A stretch of 43,361 bases of DNA from positions 1 through 43,361 of the forward strand of contig JAQWMB010000015.1 of assembly GCA_029246995.1 (NCBI GenBank). Reading direction: 5' to 3'. Below the pieces are notes generated by a model, which did not search any database, had not been told where the DNA came from, and saw only the letters and a list, made by a program, of their open reading frames with translations. Below, in pieces: positions 13,574 to 37,959 of the stretch. This DNA is from Dehalococcoidia bacterium (GTDB lineage: Bacteria > Chloroflexota > Dehalococcoidia > UBA2979). Positions within the stretch are counted from its first letter, which is position 1. Each line of letters opens with the position of its first letter. Both the position numbers and the translations under genes were made by a program.

Positions 13574-13828
13574 ATGACACAATTCAATGCATCAGTTTAT
13601 ATAAAACTAAAAAATGGAGTCAATGATCCACAAGGCCTTGCCGTGATTAGCGGACTAAAACAACTAGGTTTCGAAGCTATTGATAGTGCAAGAGTGGGAA
13701 AAGTTATCGACATTAAATTAGATGCAGAATCTGAAGAGCAAGCTAAAAATGATTTGACTGAAATGTGTGAACAATTATTAGCAAATCCAGTTATTGAAGA
13801 TTTCGATATTTCAATTACTAATATTTAG
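13574..13828 (+). CDS. purS: phosphoribosylformylglycinamidine synthase subunit PurS
   Basis: Small structural subunit that bridges the glutaminase PurQ and the synthetase PurL in step 4 of purine synthesis. The 84 residues show the family pattern ASVYIKLKNGVNDPQG, then LKQLGFEAIDSARVGKVID and a C-terminal CEQLLANPVIEDFDI. ATG start. purQ and purL, its usual downstream partners, are absent: its last four bases overlap the end of the convergent hisN-like gene. The large subunits must be encoded elsewhere. Confidence 0.93.
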   Translation: MTQFNASVYIKLKNGVNDPQGLAVISGLKQLGFEAIDSARVGKVIDIKLDAESEEQAKNDLTEMCEQLLANPVIEDFDISITNI

Positions 13829-14628
13829 ATTGTACGTAGTAAAGAAACAACTTCTTCTTTTAATCCAATGCTATTTGCTGATATGGCTTCGCCGACACCA
13901 TTTGCTGTAAGATTGCCTGTATATTCTATTACTCCACCTGATTCAGGTATTAGTAATAAAAAAGGAGCAACATCCCAAATTTTTAAATCTGCATCTAGCA
14001 TGATTTCAGCAGCGCCTTCTCCAATTAAACAATGTCCATAAAAATCACCAAAGCCTCTAGAACGACTAGAACGATCTAAAACATTCAAAAAATTATCTTT
14101 ACCCCATGCATTCATTGCAAGATCTAGTGAACCATAAAGTACCTGCGATTCTGCCAGACTGCTTTTACTGGATACTCGTAATCTTTTGATCTGATTATTT
14201 CCAGCAATTTGGAAAGCTCCTGAATTCTTTGTAGCATACCATTGCATTTGCATCGCGGGAGCAGAAACAATTGACGCAATACATTCATTTTTATACATAC
14301 ATGAAATTAATGTTGCCCAAATTGGTATACCTCGAATGAAATTATTTGTTGCATCAATTGGATCAATAATCCACGAAAATTCAGAATTATTGATCTGAGC
14401 ACCCTGCTCCTCGCCAATAATATTGTAAGTGTTATTATATGAAAGAAGTTTATCTACAATAAATGCTTCTATCTCTTTATCGGCATTAGTTACAAGTGAG
14501 TTATCTTTCTTTGTTTCTATATCAAGGGAATGATAATTTTTAAAAAAAGTAGATGACTTCTGATCAACGTCAGTCATTATAGATAAAAGATGCTTTGAGA
14601 TATCAGAGATTTTGTCTTGAGAAATCAA
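13825..14628 (-). CDS. hisN: histidinol-phosphate phosphatase, inositol-monophosphatase family
   Basis: Predicted to dephosphorylate histidinol phosphate. The 267 residues have the IMPase metal sites: IIGEEQGA (Glu73, Glu74), IIDPIDATNNF (Asp89, Asp92) and DLKIWDVAPFLL for the third Asp. The HisN role is inferred from position, since it ends the hisZ-G-D-C-B run and no other phosphatase is present; the fold alone would also fit an inositol or other sugar phosphatase. The motif DPIDAT replaces the usual DPIDGT. The start is TTG at 14628, overlapping the hisB TGA as TTGA. The first in-frame ATG is residue 18. Its 3' end overlaps purS by four bases. Confidence 0.8.
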   Translation of the reverse strand: MISQDKISDISKHLLSIMTDVDQKSSTFFKNYHSLDIETKKDNSLVTNADKEIEAFIVDKLLSYNNTYNIIGEEQGAQINNSEFSWIIDPIDATNNFIRGIPIWATLISCMYKNECIASIVSAPAMQMQWYATKNSGAFQIAGNNQIKRLRVSSKSSLAESQVLYGSLDLAMNAWGKDNFLNVLDRSSRSRGFGDFYGHCLIGEGAAEIMLDADLKIWDVAPFLLLIPESGGVIEYTGNLTANGVGEAISANSIGLKEEVVSLLRTI

Positions 14629-15224
14629 GAGTTCAGGGTTCCCTTCGTGCTTGGAACATGACCATCAATACGTTTATCATAAGAAGAAGCTGCATCAAGT
14701 GCTCGTGCAAATGATTTGAAAGCAGATTCTGCAATGTGGTGATCGTTTTTACCTGATTTTTGAATAACGTGCAATGTTATTAATGCATTCATTGAAATTG
14801 AATCTAGCATATGAGAAATTAATTCACTTGGTAGTTCACCAATTAATGGACTTGTAAATGTAAGATCGACAGATGCAAAAGGACGACCAGACAAATCAAC
14901 AACAGTTTGGACAACAGCCTCATCTAATGGAACAGTTGCATCTCCCATACGAGTAATACCTGCTCTGTCACCTAAGCATTCATTTAACGCTTGGCCAATA
15001 GCAATACCGATATCTTCGACTGAATGATGCGCGTCAACTTCTAAGTCTCCAACACATTTCACTTCAAGATCAAATCTACCATGCTTTGCAAATGCCGAAA
15101 GCATATGATCACAAAAACCAATACCTGTGTCTATTTTTGAATTACCAACTCCATCAATATTTAACTTAACTATAATATCTGTCTCGTTAGTTTTTCTTTC
15201 AATAGAAGATTTTCGATTTGTCAT
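14625..15224 (-). CDS. hisB: imidazoleglycerol-phosphate dehydratase
   Basis: Mn-dependent dehydration of imidazoleglycerol phosphate to imidazoleacetol phosphate. The 199 residues form the monofunctional type without a fused phosphatase. Motifs are GFCDHMLSAFAKHGRFDLEV, DAHHSVEDIGIAIGQAL and the C-terminal GKNDHHIAESAFKSFARAL, which supply the repeated His/Glu metal ligands. The missing phosphatase function is plausibly supplied by the adjacent hisN. ATG start overlapping the hisC TGA as ATGA. Confidence 0.96.
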   Translation of the reverse strand: MTNRKSSIERKTNETDIIVKLNIDGVGNSKIDTGIGFCDHMLSAFAKHGRFDLEVKCVGDLEVDAHHSVEDIGIAIGQALNECLGDRAGITRMGDATVPLDEAVVQTVVDLSGRPFASVDLTFTSPLIGELPSELISHMLDSISMNALITLHVIQKSGKNDHHIAESAFKSFARALDAASSYDKRIDGHVPSTKGTLNS

Positions 15225-16297
15225 TTCTTATCCCATTCCTCTATAGCATTTAGTACTTTTTGCATATTATCAGTTGTTCCAATTGATATTCTAGCATATT
15301 TTGCAAGTATAGCATCAGAGTATATTCGAATTAAAATCTTTTTATCATACATAAATTTATGAAAATCTGTATTTGCTCCTTTATTAAGATGGCAAAGTAC
15401 AAAATTACCTTCTGATGGTATTGGTGTAATATTAGTTATGTCAACTAGTTGATTAATAAAATTATTTCTAGTTTCAATAATTTTCTTAACGTTATCATTA
15501 AGGTATTCTGTGTCATTAAGCGATATAATCGCAGCTTCCATAGCATAATTTGTAATCGTATATGGTTGTTGGATCGCATTTAAAGTAGATGCTAATTCTT
15601 CATTCATTATTCCATAACCAATTCTAAGTCCTGCAAGGCCTGCCCACTTACTAAATGTCTGTATCACAATTAAGTTCGAATACTCTTTTGTTAATTCGAC
15701 ATATGATTGATATTGTGAAAATTTAATATATGCTTCATCGATAATGACCATGTGGCCCTTATCAAGCAATTTCAACATGGAATCCTTTTCCATTATTTGT
15801 CCTGTTGGATTATTAGGGCTAGCAAAAATCAGGGCTATTTGTGGCTCTGCATCAACATCAAAGTAATAACCATTAGGTCGATAATTGATTTCTTGCTCAA
15901 GTTCATCAATGTCTATATTATTAATCATGGCATCATGTTTATACATACCAAAAGTTGGCGTAATCGTAGCCAATTGCATGTCGTCATAATTATTTTTTAG
16001 AGATGAAAAAATAAGATTAATAACTGCATCAGCTCCAGCGCCACAAACAATATTACTAGGCTGTACATTTAAATAATCAGCAATTGTTTGCTTGAGCTCG
16101 TCTATAGAATTTGGATATAATTGATAATCATTTCGATTAGATAATGCATCAGTCACCTTATTTGAAGGACCATAAGGATTTTCATTACCATCAAGCTTGA
16201 TAAAATCAGACAATTCTTTAGGGTAAGTTAGGGATTTATATCCATTAATATTTAATAAATGGTCCTGAATGTAATCCTTATAATTAAAATTACTCAT
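15221..16297 (-). CDS. hisC: histidinol-phosphate aminotransferase
   Basis: PLP enzyme converting imidazoleacetol phosphate and glutamate to histidinol phosphate. The 358 residues show LDGNENPYGPS at 35-45, SPNNPTGQI near 160, IIDEAYIKF near 185 and the PLP-lysine motif TFSKWAGLAGLRIGYG with Lys217. Fold type I, subgroup HisC. ATG start overlapping the last eight bases of hisD; ATGA overlap with hisB downstream. Confidence 0.95.
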   Translation of the reverse strand: MSNFNYKDYIQDHLLNINGYKSLTYPKELSDFIKLDGNENPYGPSNKVTDALSNRNDYQLYPNSIDELKQTIADYLNVQPSNIVCGAGADAVINLIFSSLKNNYDDMQLATITPTFGMYKHDAMINNIDIDELEQEINYRPNGYYFDVDAEPQIALIFASPNNPTGQIMEKDSMLKLLDKGHMVIIDEAYIKFSQYQSYVELTKEYSNLIVIQTFSKWAGLAGLRIGYGIMNEELASTLNAIQQPYTITNYAMEAAIISLNDTEYLNDNVKKIIETRNNFINQLVDITNITPIPSEGNFVLCHLNKGANTDFHKFMYDKKILIRIYSDAILAKYARISIGTTDNMQKVLNAIEEWDKK

Positions 16298-17642
16298 GTA
16301 TTTTCTCTAATCGTACGTCAATTGAATTTGCGTGCGCATCTAATCCTTCCATTTTTGCTATTTGAGATGCATATGGACCAAGCTTTGCAAGATCTTGTTC
16401 ATGTATATTTGCAATAGATATAATTTTTTGAAAATCATATATAGTTAATGGACTAGAAAACCTTGCACTACCTCCTGTAGGCATTACGTGGCTAATGCCT
16501 CCTGTATAATCTCCGATTACTTCTGGTGTTCCTTCTCCTACAAAAATACCTCCAGCATTTTTTATTTTAGGTATCAATGATTCTGCATTGTTCGTAGATA
16601 TGCATAAATGTTCAGGAGCAAATATATTAGAAAGATCAACTGCTTCATCGATAGTTTCAGTTATTACAATGCCTCCATTTTTTAGTGATAATTCAATCAC
16701 ATCACTTCTTTCAAAAATTTTTAATTTATCTTGAATTAATTTTGTTACAGACTTTGCTAAATCTTTGCTATTAGTTACCAGTATTGGAATTGCAAGTGCA
16801 TCATGTTCAGCAGCATGCAATATGTCTGCAGTGCAGATTTCTGGATCAGCAGATTCATCAGCAATAACGAGTGTTTCAGTTGGGCCATACAATGCATCAA
16901 TGCCAACTATACCGTTCACTTGTTGTTTAGCCATAGCAACAAATATATTGCCTGGACCAGCAATTTTATCAACCTGAGGAATTGATTCAGTTCCAAAAGT
17001 AAAAGCTGCAATAGCTTGTGCTCCTGATGCTTTATATACTTTCTCTATGCCTGCAAAACGAGCTGCTATTAATTTATAAGGATTAACCGTTCCAGAAGAA
17101 TCTGTTGGCGTAATGCCATAAATACTATTCACGCCAGCTACTGCCGCAGGTGTAGCGGTATGTATGATAGATGATGGAAGCGCAGTCATTGATCCTGTCA
17201 TATAAACACCAACCGTATCAATAGGAACTACTTTAATCCCAAATCCATTTTGAAAAAAATCTCTATCTCCATGCTTTAATTGAATTTCATGATAGTTCTT
17301 AATACGTGTCGCCATAAATTTAATTGCATCAATATCAGATTGATTAACTTTTTTAAATGCTTGATCAAACTCAGCTTCTGTAACAATTAGAGAATCTAAT
17401 ATAGAACCGTCTAATATATTGCAATAGTCCTTAATTGATTGATCTCCATTTTTTGAAACATCAGCAATAATTTTACTAACTAATTGATAGGGACTTAAGT
17501 TTTTTTTGAAAATTTCTTTATTTTTATTTTGCATATCTTTAGGTAGCTTATAATCAAGTAAAGAAATTCTTTTACGAGATAATAAGTTCTGTTTAGCTAA
17601 TTCTACATTTGTATAGGTCTTTAAATAAGTCTTTGTTGCCAT
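16290..17642 (-). CDS. hisD: histidinol dehydrogenase
   Basis: Zn- and NAD-dependent two-step oxidation of histidinol to histidine. The 450 residues carry KIAGPGNIFVAMAKQQV near 227, DALYGPTETLVIADE near 249, HAAEHDA near 276 and the catalytic pair Glu344-His345 in FAPEHLCIST, then VIGDYTGGISHVMPTGG. The segment where many HisDs read PGG-A-YPS is MTGSMTALPSSI here, a mild divergence. ATG start; its A is the last base of the upstream TAA, so the junction is TAATG and coupling with the Zn-PLC-like gene is likely. Confidence 0.95.
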   Translation of the reverse strand: MATKTYLKTYTNVELAKQNLLSRKRISLLDYKLPKDMQNKNKEIFKKNLSPYQLVSKIIADVSKNGDQSIKDYCNILDGSILDSLIVTEAEFDQAFKKVNQSDIDAIKFMATRIKNYHEIQLKHGDRDFFQNGFGIKVVPIDTVGVYMTGSMTALPSSIIHTATPAAVAGVNSIYGITPTDSSGTVNPYKLIAARFAGIEKVYKASGAQAIAAFTFGTESIPQVDKIAGPGNIFVAMAKQQVNGIVGIDALYGPTETLVIADESADPEICTADILHAAEHDALAIPILVTNSKDLAKSVTKLIQDKLKIFERSDVIELSLKNGGIVITETIDEAVDLSNIFAPEHLCISTNNAESLIPKIKNAGGIFVGEGTPEVIGDYTGGISHVMPTGGSARFSSPLTIYDFQKIISIANIHEQDLAKLGPYASQIAKMEGLDAHANSIDVRLEKIHE

Positions 17643-18406
17643 TATGCTTGCTCCGTGATTGCATTTATGCTTATCTTAACAGTTTCATTAATAAATTGTT
17701 TCATATTTTCTTGAGTAACAATATTAAAAGTATCGTCAATATTTTTTTTATAATCATTAACATGTTTTGAAATTTTATCAGATGTGTATCCCAACTTAGA
17801 TAAATGTGAATGCATTAAATGAGAATATTTATCATAAAATGGTGGCTGCGCAACAATAGAAATCATGATACCGCACCATTGATTCAGTGCAATGTCATTT
17901 ATAAATGGTATATTATACGCATGATTCTGTGCATTAATTAGATTTAAGGCATTGATTAAATCTTCTTGTTTTTCTCTCTCTTGTCTATCAATCTCAAACT
18001 GCAATGTACGATCAAATAAATTATAAACAAGTTGATCTTCATCATTAGGATCAAAATCAGAATCAGTATTCCTCAAAAAATACTTCCTATAAATTAATTC
18101 TATATACCTTTTATCAGCAAGCAAATGAGTCACATATCCTGCAATAAAAGCACTTTGAGGTGATACTTCAGATAAAATACTCAATAGACCTGGATATTCA
18201 GTTGATAAATTATGTAATGGATCTTGAGGTGTGTGTATATTTAAATCAAAAAAATGAGTTTCTTTACGATCTTGTCCAGTGAATGAGCGTATATCAGGTG
18301 CTGTTGTTCCGAGAAAAAATGAGCCAGGATACTCATTGCTTGCAAGATGAGAGTTATTCTCAAGAACTAGATTTCCAATATTAATGTGTAAGCAAAGTCC
18401 TGGCAT
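17642..18406 (-). CDS. zinc-dependent phospholipase-C-like protein inside the his operon
   Basis: The 254 residues look like the Zn_dep_PLPC family (Pfam PF00882), whose members hold a His/Asp zinc cluster. Candidate ligands are His7 in LHINIG, Asp38 in GTTAPDIR, His51 in THFFD, and His94/Asp98 in GYVTHLLADKRY, an order typical of that family. No signal peptide is seen, so it is probably cytoplasmic. It lies between hisG (ten nt upstream) and hisD (TAATG overlap), so it is co-translated with histidine genes although no histidine step is known to need it. The function is unknown; hydrolysis of a phosphoester is only a family-based guess. ATG start. Confidence 0.65.
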   Translation of the reverse strand: MPGLCLHINIGNLVLENNSHLASNEYPGSFFLGTTAPDIRSFTGQDRKETHFFDLNIHTPQDPLHNLSTEYPGLLSILSEVSPQSAFIAGYVTHLLADKRYIELIYRKYFLRNTDSDFDPNDEDQLVYNLFDRTLQFEIDRQEREKQEDLINALNLINAQNHAYNIPFINDIALNQWCGIMISIVAQPPFYDKYSHLMHSHLSKLGYTSDKISKHVNDYKKNIDDTFNIVTQENMKQFINETVKISINAITEQA

Positions 18407-18415
18407 AATTAGATA

Positions 18416-19786
18416 TTATTGGAACCGATTAATGAAATCTACAATTAATGGATTCACATTATCAATTAAATTCTTATGCCCAATAATACAATTAGTTGAT
18501 TCCAGTATGAGATCTTTCATTTCAAGATTATTTGCCTCTAAAGTTGCTCCAGTTTCAGTTCCTTCAACAAGTATCTCTGCATCCTCTGGTACAAATCCTT
18601 CAGAAGCACCGGAAATTGGAATAATTTGATATTCAGATTTAATGAAATTCCTTGCAAAATAATCTGCAATACCAAAATATTCTGAAGCAATTCTTATTTT
18701 CTTAATACCCTGGCTAGCCCATACCTCCATGGCTTCGTTAACATTGGTAACGTTTAAATCTTTAGAAACAACTGCTCCGATACGATATTTACTTTGCTTG
18801 AGATCGTGCATTTCAAATACCGGTGCCGTCGGATAATTATAAATAAAATTTTTTAACCAATCTCTTCCGGTAATTGCTATATCATAAAGACCAAGAGACA
18901 CGGCTTGAGGCATGTCTTGGGGCCGCATGACATTGATAATCATGTTTACGTTATTTGAAAGATCTCCTTGGATAACCTCACTATCGGTATAACCTTTAAT
19001 CTCTACGCCTGCATTATTTAACGCGAGCGCTGTATGTCTAAATGCATGGCCATCTGGTATAGCAATTCTAATCTGCTTTCTAGTTGAGTATATTTTTTTT
19101 GTATTATTCACATAATCATTTATCTTATTATCGAAAAAATGAAAAGGTGAGCGAGATGATAGACCCTTATATTCATTCAAAAGTTTGAAAAGCTTAGATT
19201 CCTTAATCTTTTTTAGGTTCTTTTTATTACCAATCAAAAGTAGACCACCTTGATATATTGAGTCAATAACTTTTACATTATCTGTAAGTTTCTCTTCAGG
19301 TAAAATTGCAATAGACGCATCCCCATTAAGCCAAGTTTCAGGGTTACCCCATGCTTCAAATACTCGGTAATTAGTTGTTCTGTTTGCGTATAAGTAATCA
19401 GTTGTAATGTTTGGAAATTCTGTAACAATAATATGTTCATCTAGGTTATCATTAAGAGGTAGTTTATCATTTGACCTAGTCGAGTATAACTTTGAAACTG
19501 AATCATTAAATAATATTAAATTCTCAATTGACAAGTGGGGATATTTAATTAATAATTCATCTGCCCACCATGACGTAACAATGCCAAGGTCATAATTACC
19601 CAATGCAACCTGTATCGGAATATCTTTTTCCGCAAATGATCTAGCAATAGCATCATTAATATTTTTAAATTCATAACTATAAACTCTATTTGCTCTATTG
19701 TAATCAGGTATATCTATAGAAAGATCTGCTAAAATTTCAGAAACATTTTTTTGAATAGAGCCTCTAGGTACTGCAAGCTTAATCAT
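18416..19786 (-). CDS. hisG: ATP phosphoribosyltransferase, tandem two-domain HisG
   Basis: First and committed step of histidine synthesis, PRPP plus ATP. At 456 residues this is far longer than short HisG (about 210) or regulatory long HisG (about 300). Two HisG-like halves are visible. Half 1 (about 1-205) starts KLAVPRGSIQKNVSEIL and has NYDLGIVTSWWADELL. Half 2 (about 236-456) starts IRIAIPDGHAFRHTALAL and has LYDIAITGRDWLKNF. Only half 2 keeps the PRPP loop EGTETGATLEANN (Glu411-Thr415); half 1 reads IDSIYQGGLLLIGNK there, so the loop is deleted. I infer a catalytic C-half and a degenerate structural or regulatory N-half. Directly follows hisZ (TAA then ATG). ATG start. Confidence 0.88.
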   Translation of the reverse strand: MIKLAVPRGSIQKNVSEILADLSIDIPDYNRANRVYSYEFKNINDAIARSFAEKDIPIQVALGNYDLGIVTSWWADELLIKYPHLSIENLILFNDSVSKLYSTRSNDKLPLNDNLDEHIIVTEFPNITTDYLYANRTTNYRVFEAWGNPETWLNGDASIAILPEEKLTDNVKVIDSIYQGGLLLIGNKKNLKKIKESKLFKLLNEYKGLSSRSPFHFFDNKINDYVNNTKKIYSTRKQIRIAIPDGHAFRHTALALNNAGVEIKGYTDSEVIQGDLSNNVNMIINVMRPQDMPQAVSLGLYDIAITGRDWLKNFIYNYPTAPVFEMHDLKQSKYRIGAVVSKDLNVTNVNEAMEVWASQGIKKIRIASEYFGIADYFARNFIKSEYQIIPISGASEGFVPEDAEILVEGTETGATLEANNLEMKDLILESTNCIIGHKNLIDNVNPLIVDFINRFQ

Positions 19787-20551
19787 TTATTGCTCATCAG
19801 ATAATAACTTTATTAGTTCATTCATATTAAAAGCGAATCCAGAAGCATAGGCCTTTTTACCACCAAGTCCTTCACATAAATTATCGTATCTTCCTCCAGA
19901 TAGGATTTCTGTGTCATTCGCAATCACTGAAAATGCATAATTTGTATAGTATTCAAATTTTTTATTTTGAGAAGCATCAATGAATTCATAATTAAATCCA
20001 TGTTTATCAAAAATATTGCCAAGTGCTTTGATTAATCTCTTTGCAATACTTTCATCTGGTAGAGAATCATAATTATCAACTTGTAAGTTGTTATCTTTAT
20101 TAGTAATGATGACTTTAATTGCTGTGGTTAAATTTAATTTACCTAGTAATTCTGTAACGAGCTTAATAATTGCTTCATTTGCAGTTTCTGGAGATATACC
20201 AATTAATTCTGTTCCACACTGCCATATTTCTCTATTATTCTTGTCATCAATAAATCGATAAACAGGCTCAATATAAAAAAGTTTTGCTTCTTGTCCTTCC
20301 ATATTATTTAAATACCATTGTGCGGCAGGAACGGTAACATCTGGGCGAAGAACTACGCGCTCCCCTGACCACCCATCCCAATCAAGAAATGAATATGTTC
20401 CATGCAGCATGCTTGGAGTTAAAGTGCCCGCTGAAGTATATAGATTAAGTGGCTGGACAGTATTGGTTCTTATTTCAGTAAAATTGTTTGCATTTAATAC
20501 ATCACGAAATAACTGTTCAATTACTTGAAATTTTTTCAAAGTATCAACCAT
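19787..20551 (-). CDS. hisZ: ATP phosphoribosyltransferase regulatory subunit (HisRS-like)
   Basis: Class II aminoacyl-tRNA-synthetase-fold paralogue of HisRS that in short-HisG systems forms the complex needed for activity and histidine feedback. Visible are FTEIRTNTVQPLNLY, motif-2-like VVLRPDVTVPAAQW, KLFYIEPVYRF with IWQCGTELIG, and motif-3-like LSGGRYDNL with ASGFAFNMNEL. No anticodon-binding domain is present, as expected for HisZ. At 254 residues it is shorter than typical HisZ (about 320-400). ATG start with GAGAGG nine nt upstream. It is first in the his run; hisG begins immediately after its stop. Confidence 0.85.
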   Translation of the reverse strand: MVDTLKKFQVIEQLFRDVLNANNFTEIRTNTVQPLNLYTSAGTLTPSMLHGTYSFLDWDGWSGERVVLRPDVTVPAAQWYLNNMEGQEAKLFYIEPVYRFIDDKNNREIWQCGTELIGISPETANEAIIKLVTELLGKLNLTTAIKVIITNKDNNLQVDNYDSLPDESIAKRLIKALGNIFDKHGFNYEFIDASQNKKFEYYTNYAFSVIANDTEILSGGRYDNLCEGLGGKKAYASGFAFNMNELIKLLSDEQ

Positions 20552-24350: not shown

Positions 24351-24382
24351 ATACCCAACAATACATTGCAATATTTAGCTTT

Positions 24383-24724
24383 GTGGACGACCTGTAAGCG
24401 GAATTCTGTCCTCGTTTAAAAAAACGATGTACGACTATCCATCTAGGATTTAAGTTGCCTTAAACCTCAAGCAGCCTACCCTGGGGCTATTACGGACAAA
24501 TTAGCGCCCCTCTATTTGGCCTTGCTCCGAGTGGGGTTTGCCTAGCTACTTTTGTTACCAAAAGCACGGTGCGCTCTTACCACACCTTTTCACCTTTACC
24601 TTTACAGGAAGTATATTCTCTGTTGCACTTTCCATCGATTTGCATCGTCCGGTAGCTATCCGGCACTCTGTCCGTAGGAGTTCCGACTTTCCTCTAATAA
24701 ATTAGCAATCGTCCAGTCATCCAC
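24383..24724 (-). ncRNA. rnpB: RNase P RNA (M1-type, bacterial class A)
   Basis: Read on the minus strand, the 5' part contains GAGGAAAGTCGGAACTCC (the CR-I core), the middle contains GGTAAGAGCGCACC and GGCAAACCCC, then GTAGGCTGCTTGAG, and the 3' part contains GACAGAATTCCGCTTACAGG, all hallmarks of bacterial RNase P RNA. The ends GTGGATGACTG (5') and CAGGTCGTCCAC (3') pair as helix P1, which sets the boundaries at 24724 and 24383 to within a few bases, about 342 nt. It processes tRNA 5' leaders. It lies between modB and murE on the same strand. No terminator is seen after it, so read-through into murE is possible. Confidence 0.93.
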
Positions 24725-35502: not shown

Positions 35503-37959
35503 ATGTCAATTTTTAAAAATATAAATGTACTTGATCTGTCTTTAGGGCCTGCAGGGGGCTTAACCACAATGGTCATGGCAGATTTTGGTGCTAATGTTAT
35601 TAAAGTCGAACCACCTACAGGGGACCCTTTTAGATCAATGCCTTCTAGTGAAAGTTGGATGCGTGGCAAAAAAAGTCGGGTGATTGATTTAAAGTCTAAA
35701 AATGGACAATCTCAATTAAAGGAATTAATTTTAAATACCGATATAATTTTAACAAACAGCAGGCCAATAAAAGCAAAATTGCTCAATCTAGATGATAAAT
35801 CGATTAGGAAATTAAATAAAAATATCATTCATTGTTCAATTACTGGTTTTGAACGAAAAGGAAACTTGGCGAATATTCCTGGATATGAAGGATTAATTGC
35901 TGCTAAATCAGGATACATGATGACCTTTGAAGGAATTGGAAAAGATATAGTAACAAATCAATATCGTGAAGGGCCAGTATACTCAGCAGTATTATTAGCA
36001 ACACATGCGGCTTCTCAAATAGCCTTACAATCAATTACTGCAGCTTTAATATACAGAGAAAAATCTGGTATGGGCCAGTATATAGAAACAAGTCTTTTAA
36101 GAGGCATGATACCTATTGATACTGCCGGTTTATTTATTGCCCAAATTCGTGAAAGATTAAAGGATAAATTGCCAAAAGCAGTTGATCCTGAATTTGGCAT
36201 GTTGCCAGCTTTAGGCTATCATCCAATACCCACAAAAGATGGCAGATGGATACAATTAGCTGGATTAGTTAGCCATTTATTTCATGCATTTATAGATGCA
36301 GCAGGATTGAATAAGATATATGAAAATCCTAAATTTTTAGAACCTAGAGAAATGTCTAATAAGGATAAAGATCAACTAGCCAAAATTATAGCAAAAAGAA
36401 CGATGGGGAAAAATGCAGACCAATGGATGAATTTATTTGTTGAAAATGGAAACGTTGCTGCTGAAGAATGGAATAGCACTAATGAAGCAATGAGCCACCC
36501 GCAAGTCTTATATAATAAAGATGTATGGGAGTATGCAAGTAAAGAATTAGGTTTAATCAAACAATTAGGACCACTTGCACATTTTAGTAACAATAAAGCA
36601 AATCATCCTGGTGCGAAACCAAAAATTAATCAACATAGCGACTATGCCTGGCCAAAAAGAAAAAGCAAAAAAAATAATCCTCCTAACAAAAAAATAAAAA
36701 AAGGACCATTAGATGGTTTAATTTTTTTAGAGTTTGCATCAATTATAGCAGCTCCCTATGCATGTACAATTCTTGGTGAGCTTGGTGCACGTGTTATTAA
36801 AATTGAACCAATTGAAGGTGACAATTTTCGTGTAGGAGCAAACCCAGGCACTGGCAAACAAATCAAAGGCTTAGGTGCAATTAAAACAACATCAAATAAA
36901 GAAAGTATTTGCATTGATTTAAAATCTAAAGAGGGAATTAAAATTGCTCATGAACTTATAAAAAAAGCAGCTGGGATGCTTCACAACTATAGGCCAGGTG
37001 TAACAGACAAGCTTGAGATCGATTATAAAACAGTAAAAAAAATAAATTCAAAAATTGTATACGTATCAGCATGGGGTTATGGGAAGTCTGGTCCATATGC
37101 ACATCGACCAACTGCTGCACCAGGCGTTGGCGCCGCAATGGGAGGTGCATTGAAACAATTCGGAGGCACTCTTCCAAAAACTTATAAAAATAATTTATCT
37201 AAAAGCATAGAAGCAGCAATAAAAATCTATACGGCAAATCCTGGTAGTTCAGATTACAATGCAGCTCATATTATTGCATCAGCAGCAATTATGGGATTAT
37301 ACGCGCAACAAAAGAATGGAACTGGGCAAGAAATTGATTGTAATATGTTAGCTGCAAATGCATACGCAAATTTTGATTATTTTATTGATTACAAAACTAT
37401 CGACCACAAAAATAAAATTAATAAAGAAATTACAGGCTTAAATGCATCATATAGACTTTACAAAACAAAAAAGGGTTGGGTATTTTTTGCTTGTCAAAAT
37501 AAAAATGATTGGGCTAACTTTATTAATTATATCAATCACAAAAAATTTGATAAAAAACCCAATTTTGATCTCCCTGAAAATATAATTGATTTGAAGACAA
37601 AACATTCACAAATTTTAGAAAAAATTTTTCTACAGCAACCAGCAGCTAAATGGGAAAAGGAACTATCTAAAAAAAGCATTGGATGTGTTGAAGCAAGTCA
37701 ATATCTCCCAGGGACTTTTTGGCATCAGGACGAACATGTTGCAGAAAATGATTTAACAATCGAAGTTGCAAATCCTTTATGGGGAAAAATTCAGCGACAT
37801 GCAACATTAGTGAAGTTTCAATCATTTTTGCACAGAGAGGGTCCACAAATAATGGCTGGACAAAATACTAAAAGAATTCTAAATGAACTAGGCTATAAAA
37901 AAAATATAATTAATTCGTTATATGAAAAGAAAATTATTGCAACACATAAAAATAAATGA
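35503..37959 (+). CDS. class III CoA-transferase, tandem CaiB/BaiF fusion
   Basis: The 818 residues hold two CaiB/BaiF (family III) CoA-transferase domains in one chain: about 1-385 and about 405-818, joined by a Lys/Asn/Pro-rich linker. Domain 1 starts INVLDLSLGPAGGLTTMVMA, domain 2 starts DGLIFLEFASIIAAPYACT; both have the VIKVEPP/VIKIEPI strand. The catalytic Asp expected 25 residues before the GQ of GxGQ is Asp584 in domain 2 (SSDYNAAHIIA) but Thr167 in domain 1 (LLATHAAS), so domain 1 looks inactive. The acyl-CoA substrate cannot be deduced. ATG start without a clear Shine-Dalgarno; the stop codon lies inside the terminator hairpin. Confidence 0.87.
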   Translation: MSIFKNINVLDLSLGPAGGLTTMVMADFGANVIKVEPPTGDPFRSMPSSESWMRGKKSRVIDLKSKNGQSQLKELILNTDIILTNSRPIKAKLLNLDDKSIRKLNKNIIHCSITGFERKGNLANIPGYEGLIAAKSGYMMTFEGIGKDIVTNQYREGPVYSAVLLATHAASQIALQSITAALIYREKSGMGQYIETSLLRGMIPIDTAGLFIAQIRERLKDKLPKAVDPEFGMLPALGYHPIPTKDGRWIQLAGLVSHLFHAFIDAAGLNKIYENPKFLEPREMSNKDKDQLAKIIAKRTMGKNADQWMNLFVENGNVAAEEWNSTNEAMSHPQVLYNKDVWEYASKELGLIKQLGPLAHFSNNKANHPGAKPKINQHSDYAWPKRKSKKNNPPNKKIKKGPLDGLIFLEFASIIAAPYACTILGELGARVIKIEPIEGDNFRVGANPGTGKQIKGLGAIKTTSNKESICIDLKSKEGIKIAHELIKKAAGMLHNYRPGVTDKLEIDYKTVKKINSKIVYVSAWGYGKSGPYAHRPTAAPGVGAAMGGALKQFGGTLPKTYKNNLSKSIEAAIKIYTANPGSSDYNAAHIIASAAIMGLYAQQKNGTGQEIDCNMLAANAYANFDYFIDYKTIDHKNKINKEITGLNASYRLYKTKKGWVFFACQNKNDWANFINYINHKKFDKKPNFDLPENIIDLKTKHSQILEKIFLQQPAAKWEKELSKKSIGCVEASQYLPGTFWHQDEHVAENDLTIEVANPLWGKIQRHATLVKFQSFLHREGPQIMAGQNTKRILNELGYKKNIINSLYEKKIIATHKNK

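Follow-up and report, generated by a model that had tools for sequence, protein, structure and literature searches.

The window, by which we mean the whole 43,361-nucleotide stretch of Dehalococcoidia DNA analysed here, carries a histidine-biosynthesis gene (hisGG) whose product reads firmly as two joined HisG domains. The N-terminal domain lacks the loop that binds PRPP, while it retains an arginine that in a related enzyme acts in the partner subunit. Most members of one Chloroflexi class carry the double HisG. HisG is a model enzyme for allostery and has been described in two forms, short and long. The double HisG may represent a third architecture: two HisG domains obligately paired within a chain and sharing a single composite active site, to which a PRPP-incompetent HisG domain supplies some of the catalytic residues. 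It would be regulated by HisZ, in a complex with half the usual number of sites, and be fixed through most of the class. Taken as a whole, we regard this proposal as evenly balanced.

Each half of the protein matches the HisG family PF01634 in its own right, the C-half at 7.4e-25 (88 bits) and the N-half alone at 5.4e-8 (33.4 bits), both exceeding the curated Pfam cut-off of 25.5 bits. The two HisG-like halves that a first, sequence-only reading had picked out in the 456 residues are thus recovered when each is searched separately. TIGR00070 gives 97 bits for the C-half and 53 bits for the N-half, the latter below the equivalog cut-off of 75.75. The HisG_C regulatory domain is absent, Pfam reporting PF01634 only, with an end at residue 455. 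These two halves are the only HisG matches in the window's own genome. With hhalign, 29 N-halves align with ten single HisGs from relatives at 99.9% probability (E 2.7e-36), and N-halves align with C-halves at an E-value of 4.6e-51. Searched against the PDB, the profile of 29 N-halves retrieves 20 sequences, all of them HisG (best E 1.2e-21), and its alignment with these proteins spans nearly the whole domain. A model of the N-half (pLDDT 62.7), of moderate confidence and built from four sequences (window and sister genome), finds Lactococcus HisG as its first match (1z7m_E, E 1.0e-11), and its best 50 matches are all HisG. A full-chain AlphaFold2 model built from a two-sequence input was discarded (pLDDT 33.9), so that the evidence for the fold of the N-half comes from the profiles and the four-row N-half model. 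By both of these, residues 1-205 match HisG, and we conclude that the N-half really is a HisG domain.

Table 1. Features of the double HisG gene and its operon (positions in the window; residue numbers of the hisGG product unless PaHisG is named).
Feature	Position	Strand	Description	Basis
hisGG (double HisG)	18416..19786	-	456 aa, ATG start, no internal stop	ORF, Pfam, TIGR
N-half, residues 1-205	19172..19786	-	HisG fold without PRPP loop	Profiles, model
Interhalf linker, residues 206-237	19076..19171	-	Length and sequence vary among relatives	
C-half, residues 238-456	18419..19075	-	HisG domain with PRPP loop	Pfam, TIGR, profiles
Arg34 codon	19685..19687	-	N-half; equivalent of PaHisG Arg56, R-x-Y motif	
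Residues 162-171	19274..19303	-	Site of lost PRPP loop in N-half	
His247 codon	19046..19048	-	C-half; PDGH signature, PaHisG Arg32 position	
Arg288 codon	18923..18925	-	C-half; PaHisG Arg73 position	
PRPP loop, E408-N420	18527..18565	-	C-half; EGTETGATLEANN	
hisZ	19787..20551	-	254 aa, directly upstream of hisGG	
Phospholipase C-like gene	17642-18406	-	254 aa, between hisG and hisD	
hisD	16290..17642	-	Same operon	Pfam, TIGR
hisC	15221..16297	-	Same operon	TIGR
hisB	14625..15224	-	Same operon	Pfam, TIGR
HisN-like gene	13825-14628		Same operon	

In a tree of 64 domains comprising N-halves, C-halves and single HisGs, the N-halves form one clade (100/100), the C-halves another (100/98) and the single HisGs a third (100/95). 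As profiles, the N- and C-halves are the closest pair (score 330, compared with 274 for C-halves and single HisGs and 247 for N-halves and single HisGs), and they have derived features in common, SEYxN(L/I)A and PEDAD among them. Since each half forms one clade, and the two are closest as profiles and share derived features, these data point to a single internal duplication followed by joint descent; one ancient event of this kind, before the diversification of the class, would explain them. The pairwise identities of the N- and C-halves correlate at 0.81, as expected if the halves travelled together. The N-halves evolve faster, with a mean identity of 39.9% against 47.8% for the C-halves (lower in 384 of 406 pairs), and the difference is most marked in the window (branch 1.76 versus 0.76). 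The tree, the profiles and the residue counts that follow all support the duplication and fusion, with one half left without its PRPP loop, that had been read from the window.

We compared active-site positions, numbered as in Psychrobacter HisG (PaHisG), in 51 N-halves, 53 C-halves and 26 single HisGs, with a held-out check set of 19 genomes. The PRPP loop motif (D/E)xxxTGxT is found in the C-half and not in the N-half. Thr180 and Gly181 are both present in 53/53 C-halves, and in 19/19 of those held out, but each in only two of the 51 N-halves; Thr183 is kept in 50 of the 53 C-halves and is Ser in the other three. At about residues 162-171 the N-half of the window reads ILPEEKLTDN, against LVEGTETGATLEANN, and is four residues shorter. 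The sequence-only reading had correctly placed the loop ETGATLEANN at residues 411-420, in the C-half only, and no complete PRPP loop aligns in the N-half. It had also put VIDSIYQGGLLLIGNK at the position of the loop; in the alignment of N- and C-half profiles this segment falls instead opposite the post-loop segment MKDLILESTNCIIGHK. The loss of this substrate-binding motif is solid in the alignments, and the N-site is predicted to be dead.

The N-half does keep a residue of the neighbouring site. In PaHisG, Arg56 extends over the dimer interface into the other subunit, to the pyrophosphate of the PRPP bound there; the R56A substitution costs 42-fold, and R56K does not work (PMC9734150). The R-x-Y motif at positions 56-58 is retained in the N-halves (Arg in 50/51, Lys in 1/51, Tyr in 94%); at the Arg56 column the held-out N-halves add 16 Arg and 3 Lys, which gives 66/70 Arg and four Lys overall, and Dehalococcoides-like genomes have Lys instead of Arg56. 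The C-halves have lost R-x-Y, with Arg in about 2% at this column. However, the hairpin of 49 of the 53 contains an arginine somewhere, in most cases within an RRP that lies two to three residues past the column, so whether the C-halves of the class at large have lost Arg56 depends on where the gaps are placed. The C-half hairpin of the window, and that of its sister, contains no arginine at all. A second arginine of PaHisG, Arg73, is likewise provided by the adjacent subunit and acts on the gamma-phosphate of ATP, and loss of its equivalent in A. baumannii HisG costs only about fivefold (PMC10998830). It is present in 53/53 C-halves compared with 11/51 N-halves. A basic residue occurs at 73 or 75 in 42 of the 51 N-halves, many being Lys or Arg two residues on, and in the window's own family several members lack one at both positions. 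At the Arg32 position, all 53 C-halves have His within a DGH signature (almost always PDGH).

When a homodimeric enzyme is fused in tandem, an internal pseudo-dimer is the usual outcome. We propose that the N-half and the C-half of one hisGG chain pair in the manner of the two subunits of a HisG homodimer, for which they would stand in. The product would be the catalytic subunit of a HisZ-dependent ATP phosphoribosyltransferase, with its sole active site in the C-half, where the ETGATLEANN loop would bind PRPP, and Arg34 of the N-half would contact the pyrophosphate leaving group from across the interface. HisZ would activate the pair and carry the histidine feedback site. If the halves do pair, the PRPP loop of the C-half faces Arg34 and the reverse site has neither, which would leave one working site per chain and a complex with half the active sites of the usual four-plus-four octamer. 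We assign this composite-site model (N:C pairing, one site in the C-half, Arg34 acting in trans from the N-half) a probability of about 0.55. It is strongest for the window and its sister, because their C-half hairpin is devoid of arginine. The estimate goes no higher on account of Arg73, which is invariant in the C-halves and mostly lost from the N-halves, the opposite of what N:C pairing around a C-site predicts, and on account of the shifted arginine of the C-halves and the lysine of the Dehalococcoides-like N-halves. This lysine counts against a composite site, as R56K fails to work in PaHisG. A perfect complementation of the two halves through R56 and R73 together was dropped, since Arg73 also acts in trans (PMC10998830). 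The 'scaffold or regulatory pseudo-enzyme' of the sequence-only reading holds as regards the lost PRPP loop but is too simple, as the N-half retains the R-x-Y motif; this arginine acts in the partner subunit of Psychrobacter HisG, so the N-half may be part of the catalytic site and not a bystander.

The invariance in the C-halves of Arg73, itself a trans residue, and the RRP arginine close to the Arg56 position in most of them could also mean that the C-halves of two chains form an ordinary two-site HisG dimer, with the N-halves outside as scaffold or HisZ binder, an arrangement that the faster evolution of the N-half would suit as well. It leaves unexplained, however, the near-invariant R-x-Y of the N-halves, and many further N-half positions are invariant too (D55, Q59, G63 and E77). 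In addition, the arginine-free C-half hairpin of the window speaks against it. We consider this alternative unlikely, although it deserves to be kept in mind.

The usual short-form complex is a HisZ4:HisG4 octamer activated by HisZ. In transcription order, the operon of the window comprises a biotin ligase-like gene, hisZ, hisGG, the phospholipase C-like gene, hisD, hisC, hisB and the HisN-like gene (Table 1). Each of the 22 double loci examined carries a HisZ-like gene immediately upstream of hisG, and a separate histidyl-tRNA synthetase, above cut-off, is encoded elsewhere in 6/6 relatives checked. Since HisS is a separate gene, the gene beside hisGG is HisZ, and its position directly upstream in all 22 loci marks the double protein as a short-form HisG that is associated with HisZ and present twice in each chain. 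No HisS over the TIGR00442 cut-off was found in the window's assembly (G000, 89% complete); as the sister genome (G001) has one, that of the window is probably in the missing sequence. The HisZ of the window retains the GGRYD and FEYYT motifs, and is without an internal segment and a C-terminal region found in many relatives; in the window's genus HisZ measures about 254-265 aa, compared with about 360-430 aa in many relatives. It should be noted that at three loci (L112, L115 and L124) a HisS/HisZ-like gene also immediately precedes a single HisG, which here has about 340-360 aa and a C-terminal extension; a HisG of long-form size would not be expected beside a HisZ-like protein. The phospholipase C-like protein has a weak match to zinc-dependent phospholipase C (PF00882, 26.6 bits for a cut-off of 26.8), and homologues are found at the corresponding position in many genomes of the class, whether their HisG is double or single. 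Its candidacy as the missing histidinol-phosphate phosphatase is weakened by the HisN-like gene already in the operon.

We may wonder whether the N-half is itself an allosteric sensor, whose old active site binds nucleotide or histidine and replaces or supplements HisZ. The N-half is conserved and not decaying, and Arg73 of the C-half would point into the N-site. Yet the pocket is poorly kept in the N-halves (G92 in 55%, D94 in 35% and T91 in 8%), and histidine sensing is already housed in a HisZ with both its motifs, and we find this role rather improbable. We give still less credit to a reading of the N-half as a relic whose only role is structural, in keeping the chain soluble or properly spaced on HisZ. 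Its missing PRPP loop and its rapid evolution, above all in the window, would agree with a relic, but it has been maintained, with invariant residues, through the whole history of the class, and the halves are split in mid-contig in only one genome seen (G063).

The HisG family search returns at least two matches in the majority of genomes from the window's taxonomic family and in about two thirds of the HisG-bearing genomes of the class (hand count). As a rule, the double HisG is one frame of about 450-550 residues. The N-half profile matches 247 of the 393 sampled class genomes at E <= 1e-20; without a few weak matches to single HisGs or to C-halves only, a double HisG is present in about 240 of them (hand count). 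Of 400 sampled genomes from the phylum, 36 have the full double (hand count), all of them from the window's class, and none was seen outside it, where the best match is a single domain. A Chloroflexi MAG (QGNP01000008.1) contains a relative at 76-78% identity, and a search of viral contigs for related loci found none. The remaining HisG-bearing members of the class have single HisGs, of about 285-360 aa in those inspected. Two genomes of family f33, G135 and G271 (L181, L182, L192 and L193), have a double and a single long-form-like HisG on separate contigs; as there are f33 members with the single form only, the double and the single HisG seem to replace each other. In G063 (L069), the halves are two overlapping ORFs (675-1370 and 1345-2040, + strand) that share GTGCAGGATAG, which may be due to fission, to halves left unfused or to a frameshift in the assembly. 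These separate ORFs could be invoked for an artefact of assembly or gene prediction in which two adjacent genes are joined, but that reading is refuted by the same fused frame in well over a hundred independent class assemblies, including single-contig genomes of 1.4-2.1 Mb with 99-100% completeness.

The double HisG resembles the short form (HisG_S) of Psychrobacter arcticus, Acinetobacter baumannii and Lactococcus lactis in the catalytic core and PRPP loop of its C-half, in the absence of a HisG_C domain and in the adjoining hisZ. HisG_S, however, has one core in about 200-230 residues, whereas hisGG encodes two in 456, one of them without the PRPP loop. The C-half has the signature PDGH in place of the (P/S)KGR of HisG_S, and the trans arginine of HisG_S (PaHisG Arg56) is found at its column in the N-half only, the C-half hairpin often having a shifted Arg. 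The long form (HisG_L; Escherichia coli and Campylobacter jejuni) has the same catalytic domain fold, but its extra length is a C-terminal regulatory domain, whereas that of hisGG is a second, N-terminal HisG core; unlike HisG_L, hisGG is accompanied by hisZ. The double HisG would find a parallel in the prozyme-type pairs, such as those of trypanosomatid AdoMetDC and deoxyhypusine synthase (PMC5201418 and PMC3663545), which couple a dead with an active or impaired paralogue; the halves of hisGG differ in that they lie in one chain, are bacterial and belong to an unrelated enzyme.

No tandem, double or fused HisG is described in the literature searched, outside which most subscription journals fall, and a prior description is possible. 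Sequence databases surely hold double HisG proteins under the HisG label already, so the family is not new; within the literature searched, the double architecture and its implications appear not to have been described previously. A natural fused pair with a dead domain, if this is what hisGG encodes, would provide a handle on the trans-arginine mechanism, since with two halves in one chain residues can be altered one half at a time, without subunit mixing. It would also show cleanly how a homodimer turns into an asymmetric pair after duplication, in a central enzyme and in a widespread class that probably includes Dehalococcoides.

Finally, two other features of the window can be mentioned. 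A Bacterial RNase P RNA class A (RF00010, 284 bits) is located at 24379-24724 on the minus strand. On the plus strand, 35503-37959 encodes a protein of 818 aa that CoA-transferase family III matches in two stretches; here, too, a dimeric enzyme may have been fused in tandem.
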